Of a DNA stretch of 64,000 nucleotides, positions 1 through 21,969 are shown piece by piece (positions within the stretch are counted from its first letter, which is position 1; each line of letters begins with the position of its first letter). Source of the DNA: Echinostoma caproni. Taxonomy: Eukaryota > Platyhelminthes > Trematoda > Plagiorchiida > Echinostomatidae. Under the pieces are notes generated by a model. That model saw only the letters and a list, made by a program, of their open reading frames with translations. It was not told where the DNA came from and did not search any database. The position numbers and the translations under genes were made by a program. The stretch covers positions 27,204 through 91,203 of the forward strand of contig UZAN01040036.1 in the NCBI GenBank assembly GCA_900618425.1, written 5' to 3'.

Positions 1-3000
1 CGCTCAAAGGCTTCTTTTGTTAAAGTTCCTTCCCTGTACAACATCGGCCATGACCATTTAGAATCTTGGTGAAACCAGTATATTTTTTCCCGATGCCGTG
101 ACCCAGCATAATTGAGAATAACATGATCGTTACCTATCTTTTGGAGTAATTTGTACATAGATAACTTACAGCATTACATTCCAGTACCTAAACTGAGGTA
201 TGTTGATTCCGTTTTATTTTCATGGATTCCAACCAGCAGAGAAATCTTCTCAGTTTCGACGTCTCATATCTCAGCAGTACGTGGTCAGTTCACCTTTCAT
301 TATTTCATTCATTTTCAGTTTGATAAATGCGCCAAAATCAAGCAAATGTGACGTCCGATGTTTCCGGCTCCAAACGACTCCGGGAAGCCCGTCGGAGACA
401 TTAGTCACGGATACCAACATCACACTTCTTAAAGGATTATCCGAAAAGAGGAATTGAAATGAGATGAATAATTTCCTTGCGGTTGTTTCTCTTACCAGGA
501 TTCCATTTTAGCTTCAGATCCAAATTGTTTTTTTACATCTTATTTCTTCCCTAAAAGAGTTAGAAATGTTAACCCCCTCAGTGATATTGGCATCTAGAAC
601 ATCAAATACCCAGCTTTGTTACGAAACTCTTTGTTCGGTGTTGGTTTGTATTCGCTTCAAATCTAATCAACTTAATTTCAAAAATCTCACCATTGATTAA
701 AGTGTATTTCTTCATCGGTGTACTGTACAGGCAAAATTTTGAAATGTAAAATTTCAAATATAGGTAACTGTTGCTCAGAGCAAGTTACCATTTTGTAAAG
801 TAACTCCCCTTGTCCCTCGAAAAAATGAGTTATAGTTTTCTAAACTTATTGACTGGTTCGTAAATAGATGCGATTTTTTTCATTTACTGAATATGCGTTA
901 TCCCAGTCACTCACTTTGCCGTTGCAATTTAAGCACGTGATTCTTCAAAATGTATGTCAGAAAATCGCCATCGTTTATTTGGATACACTTGCGTTGTCCT
1001 ACAGAGACTGCTTTTATTTCCAAGCAGATGATTGCCTTTGCAGGCCTTTGAAACCAAAATGGGCATTACACCCTTGAAACTAAAACTTGAATTCACCCAC
1101 AGGGATGCATTGGGGACTGATTGGAACCGAAGAATTTCGTTATAAACGAAGAGTGGAACGCGATCCCTAATGTTGCAGACGGTGTAAATGAACGCTTTAT
1201 TCGCCGATATTTTTTATACAACTCCTACTGATCAATTTTTCAGATTTTCCCAGAAAAAGAATCTTTGGTGGTGGTGGCGGTCATTGACAAAGGTGGCAAC
1301 TTGTTTCCCGGGAAGACTTGAATTAGAATGCTACCACCACCCTACAACCTTCCCATTCCGAAAGTATCCCCAAGCAGCACCTTCACTGTTGCAACCCGCC
1401 CCGTTTTAAAAGTTGAACGTTTGTGTGTTCAACAAAAAGAAGTAAAATATTTTAAGATTAAAGAGACCATAATCAGACCATAATTCTCTGATGTGCATCA
1501 GGTAGACTTTGAAAGTAGGTCAATCTGTAGAAACATATCCCCGAATGAATTATGGAAATCACTGTGTTGATGTGGCTTGTAATAAAGAGATAAAGAAAAT
1601 CGATCAAATAACAGTCGACCCGATGAAATTATTTCAATCCGTTTGTGAATGAAACACTTGAAGAGGTATTATGGACTGCACATTACTGAAAATTAACAAA
1701 ACCCACAAGACCGGTTAAATGCTTCTAGGGGTAAACAAGTGAACAAACTGGCTTTAGAGCCTAAACTGTCAGAATGTGGAGCATTTAAGTAGCAAAATCA
1801 ACTCAAAATTATCAGAGTACTTTGAACGTGAAAGTTTCAAAACCGACCTGTCCGAAACATCAATTTCTGTGTTCTTAGTGAGCTGTACTAAATGAATGTG
1901 ATGTTCTACGCCTACCCAGTCAATCACTCTAATATGGTGTAACACTGGTAGCAGGAAAACTACCATTGTTAGCATTTTGACTGGTTGTAGAATTTGAGGA
2001 TTAATCTAAACCCGTTAAACACTTCACTTTACTATCGAAGAAGTGTTGTATCCCACAGAGGCAAAAACAAAAGATAGTGAAAACGCATCTAAATTGTTAC
2101 CTTCCAAACTCCATAAAAAATACTGACACCCGATTTGGATTGTGTCTACAGGTATTCGTCAGAAAATAAGCATTTAATTTGTAAAATTGAAAATTTGGTA
2201 CCATTTAAGTCACCCATTCTGGATTCAAGTTTTGTTTCAAGTTTAATAGACAAACGATGCTTATTTACAAAGAGGCAAATTGCATAAGACGCGGTAGCTG
2301 AACTGCACGTAGATTGGTTTGTCTTTCACCCAGTGATTTTGTTTACCAAATTTCACACTAATTAGGTTCTCTAGAATGGGATTTCTTCGGCATGACTGCA
2401 GTGGATGACTACAGCAGATAATTCCATCGATCCAAAATCGCTATGTCCAAATCCGTTGATGGTTTAGTCGACAGCAGTCATGTCCATGAATAGCTAATAA
2501 AGGGTCGACTAGGAATGCCAGTGTTAAAAACCACAAAGAAAATATTTTGTTTTTCAACTGCATCTGCGAAATAAGTTCAGAAAAATGGATGATTTGTGAG
2601 ATAATGCACCGTGTTGTTTCTCTCTGCGTTTGTTAGCTTCTTATCGAAAAACTGATTCCCCAGTTTATGCTCCTAAATCACCGGGACCATTGGAATTTTT
2701 AAGGTGGAATGTGTACAATTAGCACCTAACAGTTCAGATCTCAAAGCGATTGAGATCTAGATTACTGTGATCAAAAAAATGAAACTTCCACTCAACTAGT
2801 TCCATTCCGATTACTGAAACCAGGTACTTAATCTACACGACATAAACAAAGCGTAGATTTCAAAACTAGCGGACACGACAGCCAAAAGGTGGAATAGAGC
2901 AATCAAGAACCGAGGGAGCAGAACAAATTATTGAGCTACATGCACATCATCTGTTGGGACTTACCTGATTGTATATCAATGTCGTTTGCGTATAACTATA

Positions 3001-3439
3001 TACATGTTGCTCTGGTCAATGGTCACAAACGGGGAATTTTTCCAAATAAGAGCCCCACCGTTATGATGACTATTTGCTAAGACAATCCCAATTTTGTGTC
3101 AACTGGTATCTTTTGAATCCTTAAGAGTGAAAAGCATTATCAGGTTTCATCACTGTGTTCTCAGCTTTGTGGGACAGAATACTTCATTGGTAGTGAAACG
3201 CCTAACGATTGTGGAAAAGATCATTCTCCATGAAACTTGAAGACTCCGAGACCAAATCAGATAATGCACTTTGTTGCTGTGGGGAACATAAAAGATTAAT
3301 TGTATCTTCACCGAAGATTGAATAAATCCGAATTATCGTATGCATTTTCATTTTCTAATTAGCCCCTTCAACTCTGACTGCATATACTCTTGTAGTTTCA
3401 GACTGTTAGGTATCTGTAACTGTTTAACCATAACACGTG
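1..3439. other. No gene recognised
   Basis: AT-rich DNA with only short open frames (up to 85 codons, overlapping on one strand at 151-457). No repeat family, tRNA or splice-bounded exon could be supported. Confidence 0.5.
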
Positions 3440-3925
3440 AGTTGGTTGACTAAAATTGGCGACGGTGACTTGGGTTGCTCTGAGTCGAGATGGAGTCGGT
3501 AGAGGCTCGGTTGGGACCGGGTGTGGGAGGGAGCGAAAGACGGAAGACAACAATGCCCGGATAGTGATTTCCACGAGTTGGACTGACCGAAAAACACTCT
3601 GGATTGGGCGCGGCGGTACGCGCGGTACGGTGGTTATCACCACGTGCGACCGAAATGAACCGAGTTAAACGGGGCGACAGAACACATTTATTCTCTCGCT
3701 AAATGATCTCGCGTCCGGTAAAGGACACTTGTGTTAACTGGGGCCATATTTGTGGACGGAAACACATGTTTCTCTGATGTTTACGACAGGATTTCGACGT
3801 ACATGCAACTAAACACACACACACACACACGCAGCAACAAAACACCGGATGTCGACCTCAGACACAAAATGCCGTTGCTGTCGACAAGGAAAGTGTGCCT
3901 GTGCCTGGAGGAATAGAGAAAGCAG
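3440..3925 (+). promoter_or_regulatory. CpG-dense, GC-rich patch (possible promoter or first exon)
   Basis: The 250 bp from 3440 hold about 25 CpG dinucleotides by eye count, including GCGCGGCGG and TACGCGCGG, in an otherwise AT-rich neighbourhood. An E-box CACGTG lies at about 3639. Short open frames exist on both strands (plus 3456-3668, starting MATVTWVALSRDG; plus 3731-3916), but neither is a recognised protein. In invertebrates GC-rich islands often mark exons or promoters, which is general knowledge. The role here is inference. Confidence 0.25.
3813..3830. repeat. (AC)9 microsatellite
   Basis: Nine AC units at the right-hand side of the CpG-dense patch. Confidence 0.9.
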
Positions 3926-4599
3926 TTTGAGGATTATTTGTTGTCTATTACATCCGTAAAATGCTTGTTCCAACGGGCCCGCTGTCCACTTATCCCTACT
4001 GAAGAGGCTGCAGAGACAAAAGTGATCCGTGTTTTTGACAGTCGCATTGTTTCAACTCGTTATGTACAGACCGAATAAACTATACGGCTTCATCGGGGTG
4101 GCAGAGAATAAAGCAGATGGTCAAATAACATCTATTCTTGTGTGCAGTGCTTCTTCAGCACTAGCTTTATGTCATTAGATCGATTGGAATCTGTCACATG
4201 TAGGGGAATTAACTTAAATCCTTCTTTAATGAAATCATAGAAGGGCAAGTTTTCAAGCGAGCACTATTAGGTCTACGAAGTGAGAGAATGAAGGAGGTAG
4301 AGTCACGTTTTTTCCTATCATGAAAAGGGTGTATGTGGTCTGTTATTATTGCTGAACAATAGTTCCGACAGGTAGTTGAAATATGATGACTTAATGACTG
4401 CTTGGAATCTGTGGGGTAAATAACCTTCAATCGAAATGATTGGTTTTCTGCTAAAGAACATTTATACAAGCTCAAATGAATTTCTATTTGGATGATGGGT
4501 ATTGATCAGCACGTTGTAGTGAGTAATATATAAAACGAGTTCATTTGGATTACCAATGAGAAAGAACGTCATCAACTAAGGGGAATACAAAAGGATTAT

Positions 4600-15220: not shown

Positions 15221-16261
15221 ACTGCTTCTGCTTTACCCTTTGAAATTGGGAGTGGTTCGGGGAATCTAATTAGAGTTTTAGGCGATTAGTATCAGACACA
15301 GGTCTTGGGAACACCGTTGGAGAAAGAGTGAGTGTATGTAAATTGCACATCAGAATTCTTTGTGATAAAATGAATCATGAAAGAATTGAGAATCTGTTCT
15401 TGTTTCAATCAATCTGACAGGGATAGACAAATGAGAGCAGTGCTTGAACAGTAGCGGTGACTACAAAATAGGGACTCACTAACCTCTTGAGAGATAAATA
15501 CACGTTTATTGGGTGACTTGTGTGCCATGGTTGGTTTCAGTCAAGATTTTCCCTTTACACTTTACTTCCAAAAAGAATTGAACAACTGAATGAAAACCCA
15601 ACATGAATTAGAAATGTTTCAAAGGTACCTGAAATGAAAGCGATAACTCAAAATCCCCACCCCACGATGCATTCCAAAGCATTCATTCAAATAGCTTTAC
15701 TATTCGTAACAGTTTAGCAACCAATAAAACGCCAGTAAAACAGTACCACCAGATCAAAGCGGTATACATACTCTTTGTTCTTGAATAAAAGGAAATGAAA
15801 ACAGAGTTCAATAAGCAGCTATTTGAGGAGGATGTATCGCTATTTTTGTCCTACTTTATCAACGCATAAATCCTTTAAAAATTACATGTTTCATCGGGAG
15901 AAAACGGTGATCAGAAAATTGCTTCCTCATGTGCATATCTAATCTTCTGGGATAGAAACCCGAATATGAGTATTATCTGCTCGTCATTGTATTTGATAAG
16001 TAAAATGCTACAGTCTTGAAAATAAGGTCTTTCCTTTCTCGGTACTTATTTTTGTCTTTTCATTTGCGAAATACCTCCAGATAGAATCCTGAATGATGGG
16101 TGCATTTTAGTGACCAGCGTTTCGTGTTATCGTCCTGATCGCATTCAGATGATGAAAATATTATTACATTCATGTGTCAACCATGTCCAATCGAACTGAT
16201 CATCCGGTCTTAGCAGATTAAAATGCAGAGATACACACACAGTCCTCTGTTCATCCGGTCA

Positions 16262-16410
16262 ACAATACACGCGAGTGGCACAAGACTCGAGTTTCGCTCT
16301 TATTAGAGCTCATCAGTAGTGCATATTCACCGTCCCATCCGTGATTTGAATTCCGGACCGACCGTATGGAGAGTGTGCGTTACCACTATGTCAACCAGTT
16401 GATACCAGAA
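16262..16410 (-). mobile_element. tRNA-derived SINE with hammerhead ribozyme, copy 1
   Basis: Read on the minus strand, the element opens with a tRNA-like head. It has an A-box-like TAGTGGTAACGCAC near 16375-16388 and a B-box-like GAATTCAAATC near 16342-16352. These are the two internal RNA polymerase III promoter boxes of tRNA-derived SINEs. About 15 bases further on is a complete hammerhead core, listed separately. A second copy in the opposite orientation begins 130 bp away, and a third, worn copy lies at 31.7 kb, so this is a dispersed family. The head-plus-hammerhead layout is that of the schistosome Sm-alpha SINE, which is established knowledge. Assignment to that class is inference from architecture, not from a database match. 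The outer boundaries are approximate; no target-site duplication or poly(A) tail was found. Confidence 0.75.
16274..16331 (-). ncRNA. Hammerhead ribozyme (type I, SINE-borne)
   Basis: Minus-strand order is stem I, CTGATGA (16316-16310), stem II, GAAA (16295-16292), stem III, then the cleavage base C at 16284. Stem II is GCTC/GAGC with a six-base loop TAATAA. Stem III is ACTC/GAGT with no loop nucleotides, the same palindromic arrangement known from schistosome hammerheads, where two molecules may have to pair for full activity. Stem I pairs GCACTA with TTGTGC (five of six, one T-T mismatch). After an internal loop, it continues as GGTG with CACT (three Watson-Crick pairs and one wobble). An internal loop in stem I facing loop II is the usual natural layout for tertiary contact. 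All conserved core residues (CUGAUGA, GAAA, U before cleavage-site C) are present. Predicted cleavage falls between 16284 and 16283. Activity is inferred, and the T-T mismatch beside the core could weaken it. Confidence 0.8.
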
Positions 16411-16543
16411 ATGTCAATTCATGCACGTTGAGGTGCCATCTTGTGACCCAACAGCAATTATAAACTGTAAACTCCAATCAAAAGCCGTCTGGTCACAAAA
16501 TGAACATCTAAATAAATGAATTGATAATGCTGATAAGTCCCGG

Positions 16544-16665
16544 TATGGGCTAGTTGGCACAATGGTAAAACACTCGTTTCATGCAATGGGTCCGGAAGTC
16601 AAAGTTCAGAGGAGACGGTGAATATGCACTACTGATGAGCTCAAACAAGAGAAAATCTCCATTCC
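16544..16665 (+). mobile_element. Hammerhead SINE, copy 2 (core broken)
   Basis: Plus-strand copy of the same SINE. Its tRNA-like head includes TAGTTGGCACAATGGTAAAA near 16551 and GGTCCGGAAGTCAAAGTTC near 16589. A 29-base block at 16614-16642 is identical to 16334-16306 of the minus-strand copy and contains CTGATGAG. Stem II survives as GCTC-AAACAA-GAG, but the following bases read AAAATCTCC where the core needs CGAAAC and a palindromic stem III. The GAAA element and stem III are therefore destroyed, and the ribozyme is predicted inactive. The two copies form an imperfect inverted repeat with a spacer of about 130 bp. Confidence 0.7.
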
Positions 16666-17032
16666 GATATATTGTGGAATGGATGGATTGACGATTGTGC
16701 GTGAAGATGAGATATGAAGCATGGCCAGTTCAAATAAGTAACATTTATCGCATACCACTACTTAAAAGTCACTGAGTCAAAGGTGGATTGGGGAAAAGTT
16801 ACAGTGACATTCGACTGTTGATAAAACGTGATATTTGATGATGCGGTTTTCATTTATCAAATAGATATTAACAGACATACACTCCATGTAAATTATTATT
16901 CTGTGTTGGTTCGATCATAACTGAAGGGTATTTTTCACGTCCGGAAATATAATTGATGGGTCCAAATAAACACATGTGGTATCCCTTTTTCAACCATTAT
17001 GCTTCCAGGAAAACTATAAATAGCAAATATCA

Positions 17033-21300: not shown

Positions 21301-21886
21301 TGGTTTTGTCTGGTTTTAGATCCTATATGACCACCAGCCCACCACCAAGACTACTACCATCATTTCGTCCTCGTGTTATTGCCTTTCTCACCTCTTAACT
21401 ATGGTGAATAGCTATCGTGTCAGTGTTTATTGTTGGTAATAGACAACCCAAGTGAAACAGATTTCCAATCAACAGCCCCAGAAAATGTTTCTGGAGTGGT
21501 ACATACTGCAAGTTAGTTAAATTAATGATTTAGGATTATTTAGTAAAGGGATGTGTACGTGTAAACCGGCTACTTTTGTTTGACATTGAAACTGAAAATA
21601 CCTTAAGGCATGGATTTTAAGGATTTAGAAATTTACATTCAAAAACAACAATTGTATTGGGAGGCTTGAGATTTTATTCGGTTTATCCCTGCAACAAAGC
21701 TGTGACTGGGAAGAAAAGTGGAGTTAATTGCTGATAGCTGAGAACCTGCTTATATGCTATCAGTTCAAACCAGTAAGAACTTCCGGTTGAATTTTGGGTT
21801 TCCACCCAACTAAAAGTTCTTAGATAGCTTCAGACCGATAATTCAGGTGGTAGTAGATTGCTAAGGGAGAAATAATCAAATTGAGA
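18393..21886. other. No gene recognised
   Basis: AT-rich DNA with frames of at most 73 codons. No repeat or RNA structure could be supported. Confidence 0.5.
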
Positions 21887-21969
21887 GGCCTCGGTGGGAT
21901 TCGTAACCACGCATAGACACCGCCTACGCTTTTGTACAGCGCAAGCTCTACAAGCTGAACTACGAGGCC
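21887..21969 (-). tRNA. tRNA-like sequence, anticodon ACA, probably a SINE head or pseudogene
   Basis: This 83-nt minus-strand sequence folds as a tRNA with a long variable region. The acceptor stem GGCCTCG/CGAGGCC is perfect (7 bp), the D stem is GTTC/GAGC, and the anticodon stem TGCGCT/AGCGTA has six pairs with one wobble. The seven-base loop GTACAAA has T at position 33 and anticodon ACA. The T arm is GTGG-TTACGAATC-CCAC. The B box GGTTACGAATCC has an extra base compared with GGTTCGAATCC. The long variable arm is unusual for the cysteine codon that ACA would read. The inserted base and an adjacent inverted copy of the T-arm/acceptor end argue for a tRNA-derived repeat over a working gene. 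No Pol III T-run was identified. Confidence 0.45.

Follow-up and report, generated by a model that had tools for sequence, protein, structure and literature searches.

Short SINE-like repeats that carry a hammerhead ribozyme are already known in flukes, where the accessible portions of earlier accounts describe the Sm-alpha and Sj-alpha families (PMC2770079, PMC8490949) and put the number of Sm-alpha copies above 10,000 (PMC2770079). The metazoan non-LTR retrozymes, as characterised in the accessible parts of PMC7229834 and PMC7761336, are small non-coding repeats with a type I hammerhead, and they are recognised by tandem units of ~150-450 bp and by abundant circRNA. That Penelope-like elements (PLEs) serve as helpers of the retrozymes is an existing conjecture (PMC7229834, accessible part).

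In PLEs themselves, one inverted pLTR of the pair bears a tail, the arms are most commonly arranged head to head, and target site duplications of 8-10 bp accompany some copies and are absent from others (PMC3846280, in its accessible sections). The purified protein of a green-anole PLE cleaves and extends both strands, and its two initiation sites bound a tail of 30-40 bp; most initiation takes place at an AC-rich stem loop located at 111-118 bp of the ORF, the hammerhead cut lying at 26 bp, and mutation of the ribozyme leaves in vitro insertion unchanged (PMC11167929).

The DNA analysed here (“the window”, 64,000 nt in full) comes from Echinostoma caproni, a non-schistosome fluke, whereas Sm-alpha and Sj-alpha belong to schistosomes. 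In the assembly, a GST exon (L067) is closest to the sigma-class GST of Fasciola hepatica (PDB 2wb9, E 9e-21), with the schistosome 28-kDa GST entries behind it (2e-11 and weaker). The 36-nt spliced leader of S. mansoni has no counterpart at up to three mismatches, although a draft might lack it, and a search for COX1 gave nothing. The repeat family found in it resembles these two, as far as their accessible descriptions go, in the putatively tRNA-related head, the type I hammerhead and the many dispersed copies. The new point is its insertion anatomy, namely head-to-head pairs with one tail: a PLE-type pair anatomy goes unmentioned in the accessible portion of the Sm-alpha account (PMC2770079), and the literature searched, mostly from journals open without subscription, listed no report of such a rule for a hammerhead SINE. 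Among the matches listed, there was no literature report of hammerheads in other flukes.

Results

The hammerhead and its family

Read on the minus strand, the window sequence runs GCACTA-CTGATGA-GCTC-TAATAA-GAGC-GAAA-CTC-GAG-TC, with TTGTGC behind the predicted cut, and the segment 16274..16331 contains what defines a type I hammerhead: CUGANGA, GAAA, three helices and an NUH triplet (GUC at 16286-16284). The earlier note had listed all core elements in order with a cut at 16284/16283, and our reading agrees with it in each position (Table 1). In the covariance-model check that it had proposed, Rfam Hammerhead_HH9 (RF02275) covers 16261-16334 end to end and scores 42.7 bits, with E 2.1e-9 in a search of 901 bases against 4227 families. 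HH9's gathering score, 52, is not attained, and no Rfam match in the whole window is at gathering level. Of the 19 fetched loci that were put to Rfam along with the window, four reached the Hammerhead_1 gathering score. The bare motif CTGATGA-N14-GAAA would not be convincing by itself, as with up to one mismatch it gave three matches (one exact, the 16274..16331 copy) against 2.37 expected. The core pattern as a whole has 170+173 = 343 exact matches in the 426.5-Mb draft of 12689 contigs, and its reversed control has 0+0. The hammerhead at 16274-16331 (-) is real, beyond chance, and belongs to a dispersed family.

Table 1. Positions of the ribozyme parts and of the two inverted arms in the window
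Feature	Position	Strand	Basis or remark
Type I hammerhead ribozyme, core intact	16274..16331	-	Direct reading; Rfam HH9 42.7 bits; genome-wide core copies
CTGATGA of hammerhead	16316-16310	-	Read directly
Stem II GCTC/GAGC, loop TAATAA	16309-16306/16299-16296	-	Read directly
GAAA of hammerhead	16295-16292	-	Read directly
Stem III ACTC/GAGT	16292-16289/16288-16285	-	Read directly
Stem I GCACTA/TTGTGC, one T.T mismatch	16322-16317/16283-16278	-	Read directly
Outer stem I GTG/CAC	16330-16328/16277-16275	-	Read directly
Cleavage C, predicted cut 16284/16283	16284	-	Read directly
Left arm	16193..16508	-	M57-406 by local alignment, internal deletions
Box B-like word (GGAATTCAAATCA)	16342..16354	-	Read from sequence; consensus counterpart M262
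Degenerate box A-like word (TTGACATAGTGG)	16383..16394	-	Read from sequence; consensus counterpart M218
Right arm, head-to-head with left	16479..16781	+	M134-462, long 3' end class with tail
Decayed right-arm hammerhead	16632..16659	+	CTGATGAGCTC kept
AC-rich tail remnant, ~M421-462	16742..16781	+	Alignment

HH9, the best-scoring model, shares the core and stem II GCUC/GAGC with the window copy; its stem I is a different one, and its stem III, of 3 bp, is closed by a 5-nt loop. The loop-less stem III, which had been taken for a peculiarity of schistosome Sm-alpha hammerheads, is ordinary, because the printed Rfam type I consensus (Hammerhead_1) has one too. A stem III loop of zero nucleotides cannot close in a monomer, and therefore either dimer help or a 2-bp stem III with a UCGA loop is a plausible route to folding. 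The window copy keeps its core, with one stem I mismatch, and may cleave its transcript.

Consensus M, made from the fetched copies, has 465 nt, with a box A-like word (TGGCACAGTGG) at M218, a box B-like word (GTTCAAATC) at M262, CTGATGA at M297 and the cut after M329. Its 3' part consists of an A/CAAT-rich stretch to ~M420 and an AC-rich stretch to M465; the latter, a tail of 45 nt, is predicted to form a hairpin (ACTCACAAGTAACTGTGAGT). The family looks SINE-like, and the box-like words may serve as a putative promoter. The previous description as a hammerhead in a tRNA-derived SINE thus holds for the complete type I hammerhead and for the SINE-like repeat, and the candidate tRNA origin is read from just the words resembling boxes A and B; consensus M, when given to ARAGORN, yields no tRNA. 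A tRNA-Cys-like gene is called by the same program at 21885-21969 (-) of the window. The suggestion of a new SINE subfamily is not supported: the copy has the core of the family consensus and is an old member, ~20% diverged, with no marker of a subfamily. Two other copies of the repeat (G000:C793:75051-75270 and 89313-89532), equal in score and length, lie in opposite orientation 14 kb apart, perhaps as a segmental inverted duplication.

Pairing and decay among copies

Compensatory changes among genomic copies, which the earlier note had named as a check, gave no excess in stem II: in 100 listed of 399 anchored copies, 349 of 400 cells were paired against a shuffle mean of 344.2, and this value was reached in 182 of 5000 shuffles. 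For stems I and III, tabulated only in the 66 fetched copies, one-sided changes were scattered and double changes rare. It is the covariation between families that supports the fold: compared by eye with the Rfam Hammerhead_1 consensus, which we take to be Sm-alpha-like, the repeat differs with pairing kept at five of six stem I pairs, two of four stem II pairs and one of four stem III pairs.

Extra conservation of stem II was not seen, since the substitution rate is 12.6% for each nucleotide of the stem and 8.5% for the loop, versus 6.1% in a control segment of the repeat, the anchors of which contain CpG and so favour younger copies. Neither stem II covariation nor extra stem II conservation speaks for selection on individual copies, and on these grounds nothing indicates that present copies cleave. 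An intact core is kept in only 11 of 41 copies not selected by the core pattern, and the genomic copies look as if they were decaying neutrally. The hammerhead diverges less (4.6%) than the tRNA-like part (7.1%) and all other parts (9-12%) in the 28 arms recovered through DNA similarity, but in 49 secondary arms the contrast is less clear (11.1% versus 10-16%), and given the latter we rest nothing on it.

Anatomy of the insertions

Insertions were delimited at 66 loci, 30 found via the core pattern and 36 via similarity to the window copy, with seven same-place repeats removed. Arms at most 80 bp apart were grouped, and insertions shorter than 80 bp or at most 40 bp from a locus end were removed, which left 63. 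Mixed orientation was observed in 27 of these, and all 27 run minus-then-plus, i.e., head to head with the 3' ends outward, tail-to-tail pairs numbering 0 of 27. The 3' ends cluster at M415-424 (27 of 100 arms) and at M460 or beyond (34 of 100). We distinguished a short class S (M400-432) and a long class T with the tail (M443-465), the bins being set after the ends had been seen. Among the 27 head-to-head units 17 were ST, none SS and none TT, and ten had the second end elsewhere; each of these ten has one arm ending at M443-465 and a partner ending at M368-398 (seven units) or at M98, M124 and M202 (three units). In all 17 units with both ends classifiable, the AC-rich 45-nt tail is present on exactly one arm. 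Head-to-head arms with the tail on one (27/27 and 17/17, respectively) are the arrangement by which a PLE-mobilised repeat is to be recognised. The 36 single-orientation insertions comprise 20 S, 12 T and 4 other, and at their frequencies 17 ST in 17 would occur by chance about three times in a million, a value to be read with the post hoc bins in mind.

For a prediction sample, the rule was fixed first and the first eight new loci were then taken from the list of a second pattern drawn from the repeat. Four were mixed and four single, and all four mixed loci were head-to-head and ST, with ends at M415/448, 418/463, 418/464 and 413/458. By eye, in 100 listed of the 343 places, there were four opposite-strand pairs within 1 kb, all minus-then-plus.

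A duplication around the whole unit is the other mark of PLE mobilisation. Words shared by the outer flanks (22 bases outside and ~6 inside each end, compared with mismatched flanks) reached at least 7 bases in 14 of 27 head-to-head units versus 4.7% in mismatched flanks, and at least 10 bases in 6 of 27 versus 0.4%. For single-orientation insertions the corresponding counts were 10 of 36 (3.5% mismatched) and 1 of 36 (0.2%). Flank words of 10 to 12 bp occur at loci L025, L054, L056, L061 and L065, and that at L044 is possibly spurious, being similar to the tail. Among the eight further loci, where the longest words were 6, 8, 4 and 5 for head-to-head units and 5, 4, 7 and 5 for singles, just one of four head-to-head units had a word of at least 7, and this sample adds little on target duplication. 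Derived changes are shared about threefold more often within units than between them (35.5% versus 11.4%, 22 pairs), as though one source, or sources closely akin to each other, had supplied both arms.

The unit in the window

The window contains two old arms that form one head-to-head unit, with the core intact in the minus arm and broken in the plus arm; the inverted arm 16479-16781, like the insertion anatomy, is additional to what had been noticed before. The best 221 nt of the left arm (16234-16442) are 80% identical to the consensus by BLAST, and the right arm is 74% identical over 16516-16781. In the right-arm hammerhead, deletions damage the 3' side of stem II, GAAA and stem III. Since the inner-end alignments overlap by 30 nt, the join between the arms is left imprecise. 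The pair counts among the ten units with an unclassifiable end because BLAST ended at M378; by local alignment its arms end at M406 and M462, which fits the rule of one short and one long end. It has no shared flank word of at least 8 bases, one BLAST end being inexact there.

Penelope-like elements in the same genome

RT matches were scored for 150 of 3054 candidates, and the genome does contain PLEs. In a 671-aa open frame at L082:267-2282 (-), the motif YVDD of a Penelope-type RT and a GIY-YIG-like stretch are recognised by eye, and at L074 Pfam identifies RVT_1 and GIY-YIG in two frames. For Adineta PLEs a length of 830-842 aa is quoted, which the L082 frame does not reach. The PLE copy at L077 is flanked by inverted arms. 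Among the 13 PLE/GIY-YIG loci, L073 is without a reported RT and five contain N runs of 732-3806; a search of all 13 with consensus M for a sequence-matched partner gave nothing significant, the best match being 24 nt in L082 (E 0.02), and Rfam on six of them gave no hammerhead.

Several further structures were noticed around these copies. A perfect 110-nt palindrome (L081:804-913) lies directly 5' of a PLE open frame and may be compared with the head-to-head palindromes of Adineta PLEs. Just downstream of the L077 copy (L077:4881-5157) there is an inverted tRNA-like pair with 123-nt arms, 90% complementary; Rfam calls a tRNA on both, and it is a distinct tRNA-like repeat. Short GAAAC-RTC stretches behind a possible stem occur in the PLE flanks at L077 ~4530-4570 and L084 ~3140-3185; they are perhaps relics of minimal PLE hammerheads, and Rfam makes no call on them.

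Discussion

The features described above make it likely, in our opinion, that this SINE-like, non-autonomous retroposon of ~465 nt, with its box A/B-like words, hammerhead and AC-rich tail, is moved by a PLE. We also lean towards the fuller reading that a hammerhead SINE/retrozyme uses Penelope-like machinery, not that of a LINE, and that its pairs are reverse-transcribed from both target strands at two start sites, with one tail as the outcome.

The repeat is similar to PLEs in the head-to-head inverted arms, the tail on one of them, the two RT starts, the AC-rich stem loop and the target duplications. The distance from the hammerhead cut to the RT start is ~91 nt here (proximal site) and 85-92 nt in the green-anole PLE, with the correspondence of the starts uncertain. 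Unlike PLEs, the repeat has no visible coding capacity, and its hammerhead is canonical whereas that of PLEs is minimal. With the metazoan non-LTR retrozymes, as far as PMC7229834 and PMC7761336 are accessible, it shares the small non-coding format, the type I hammerhead and the unit-length head-to-tail junctions (seen in 15 of 20 full-length arms); it differs in that its 465-nt units are dispersed and mostly truncated or head-to-head and not in tandem arrays, and in having box A/B-like words, promoters not being seen in the accessible part of the retrozyme review.

One can suggest the following course of insertion. The PLE protein would cut both target strands a few bases apart, and each target end would prime reverse transcription on an element RNA. 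One of the starts would be distal (~M465), the other proximal (~M420) and ahead of the tail. The resulting cDNAs, mostly 5'-truncated, would join head to head, yielding an inverted pair that has a single tail and is flanked by a target duplication. Transcripts would undergo hammerhead cleavage after M329, and circles or trimmed ends may result.

An ordinary Sm-alpha-type SINE mobilised by a LINE, whose inverted pairs are due to twin priming or chance nesting, is in our judgement unlikely, even though the tRNA-like head words, the A/CAAT-rich S end, the 5' truncation and the dispersed copies fit it, and the accessible portion of PMC2770079 presents Sm-alpha and Sj-alpha as hammerhead-bearing, SINE-like retrotransposons. 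The existence of two 3' end classes, divided between the arms, argues against this origin, and nesting is at odds with the 0 of 27 tail-to-tail pairs and with the words shared by the outer flanks. In twin priming the inverted segment is the 5' part of a single RNA, but here the 3' end is present on both arms. A foldback or MITE-like DNA transposon with a hammerhead by chance in its inverted ends would account for the inverted arms, the sharp outer end at M465 and target duplications of ~10-12 bp, but it is scarcely credible given that the outer ends are unlike (tail versus no tail), the break points on the inside are not constant, 5' truncation is frequent among single arms, and copies of unit length are joined head-to-tail at M465/M1. 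Misassembly at collapsed repeats might be feared in a draft of 12689 contigs with N in several loci; as the source of the pairs we find it highly improbable, because outer duplications, an exclusive head-to-head order and the one-tail rule are unexpected of misjoins.

The retrozyme model, in which a hammerhead-processed circular RNA is the template for any enzyme, is compatible with PLE-driven movement, and we regard it as a rather doubtful but tenable addition. With the query extended back to M381, 15 of the 20 arms that reach the unit 5' end cross M465/M1 into M389-456 and none goes further, i.e., they enter the last 10-77 nt of the preceding unit, and longer multimers are absent among the 20 full-length arms. 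In favour of circles, only two of 100 arms start within M320-339, around the cut site, and cDNAs longer than one unit are predicted from circles (PMC7761336, accessible part). However, the stops do not shift with the place where a given copy starts, they would be explained equally by a linear RNA that begins near M390-456, and in 100 listed of the 343 places, by eye, there was one same-strand pair within 1 kb.

A linear RNA cut at M329 was rejected as the usual template, the 5' starts not being piled at the cut; with two of 100 arms starting in M320-339, such an RNA is rarely a template. Twelve of 100 arms have their start at M280-299, a short way 5' of the hammerhead core; these may be RT stops after the ribozyme and are partly a selection effect of the core pattern.

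The rule of one tail per head-to-head pair offers a simple end-class score which can be applied to any genome, and the pairs represent a natural data set on the joining of two cDNAs; this subsequent step was left for validation by the in vitro study of the PLE (PMC11167929). If the proposed mode of insertion is true, the anatomy would be the missing genomic footprint that names the helper of animal retrozymes, as well as a general rule for the construction of PLE insertions, and copies pasted by PLEs would help to explain how ribozyme repeats move.
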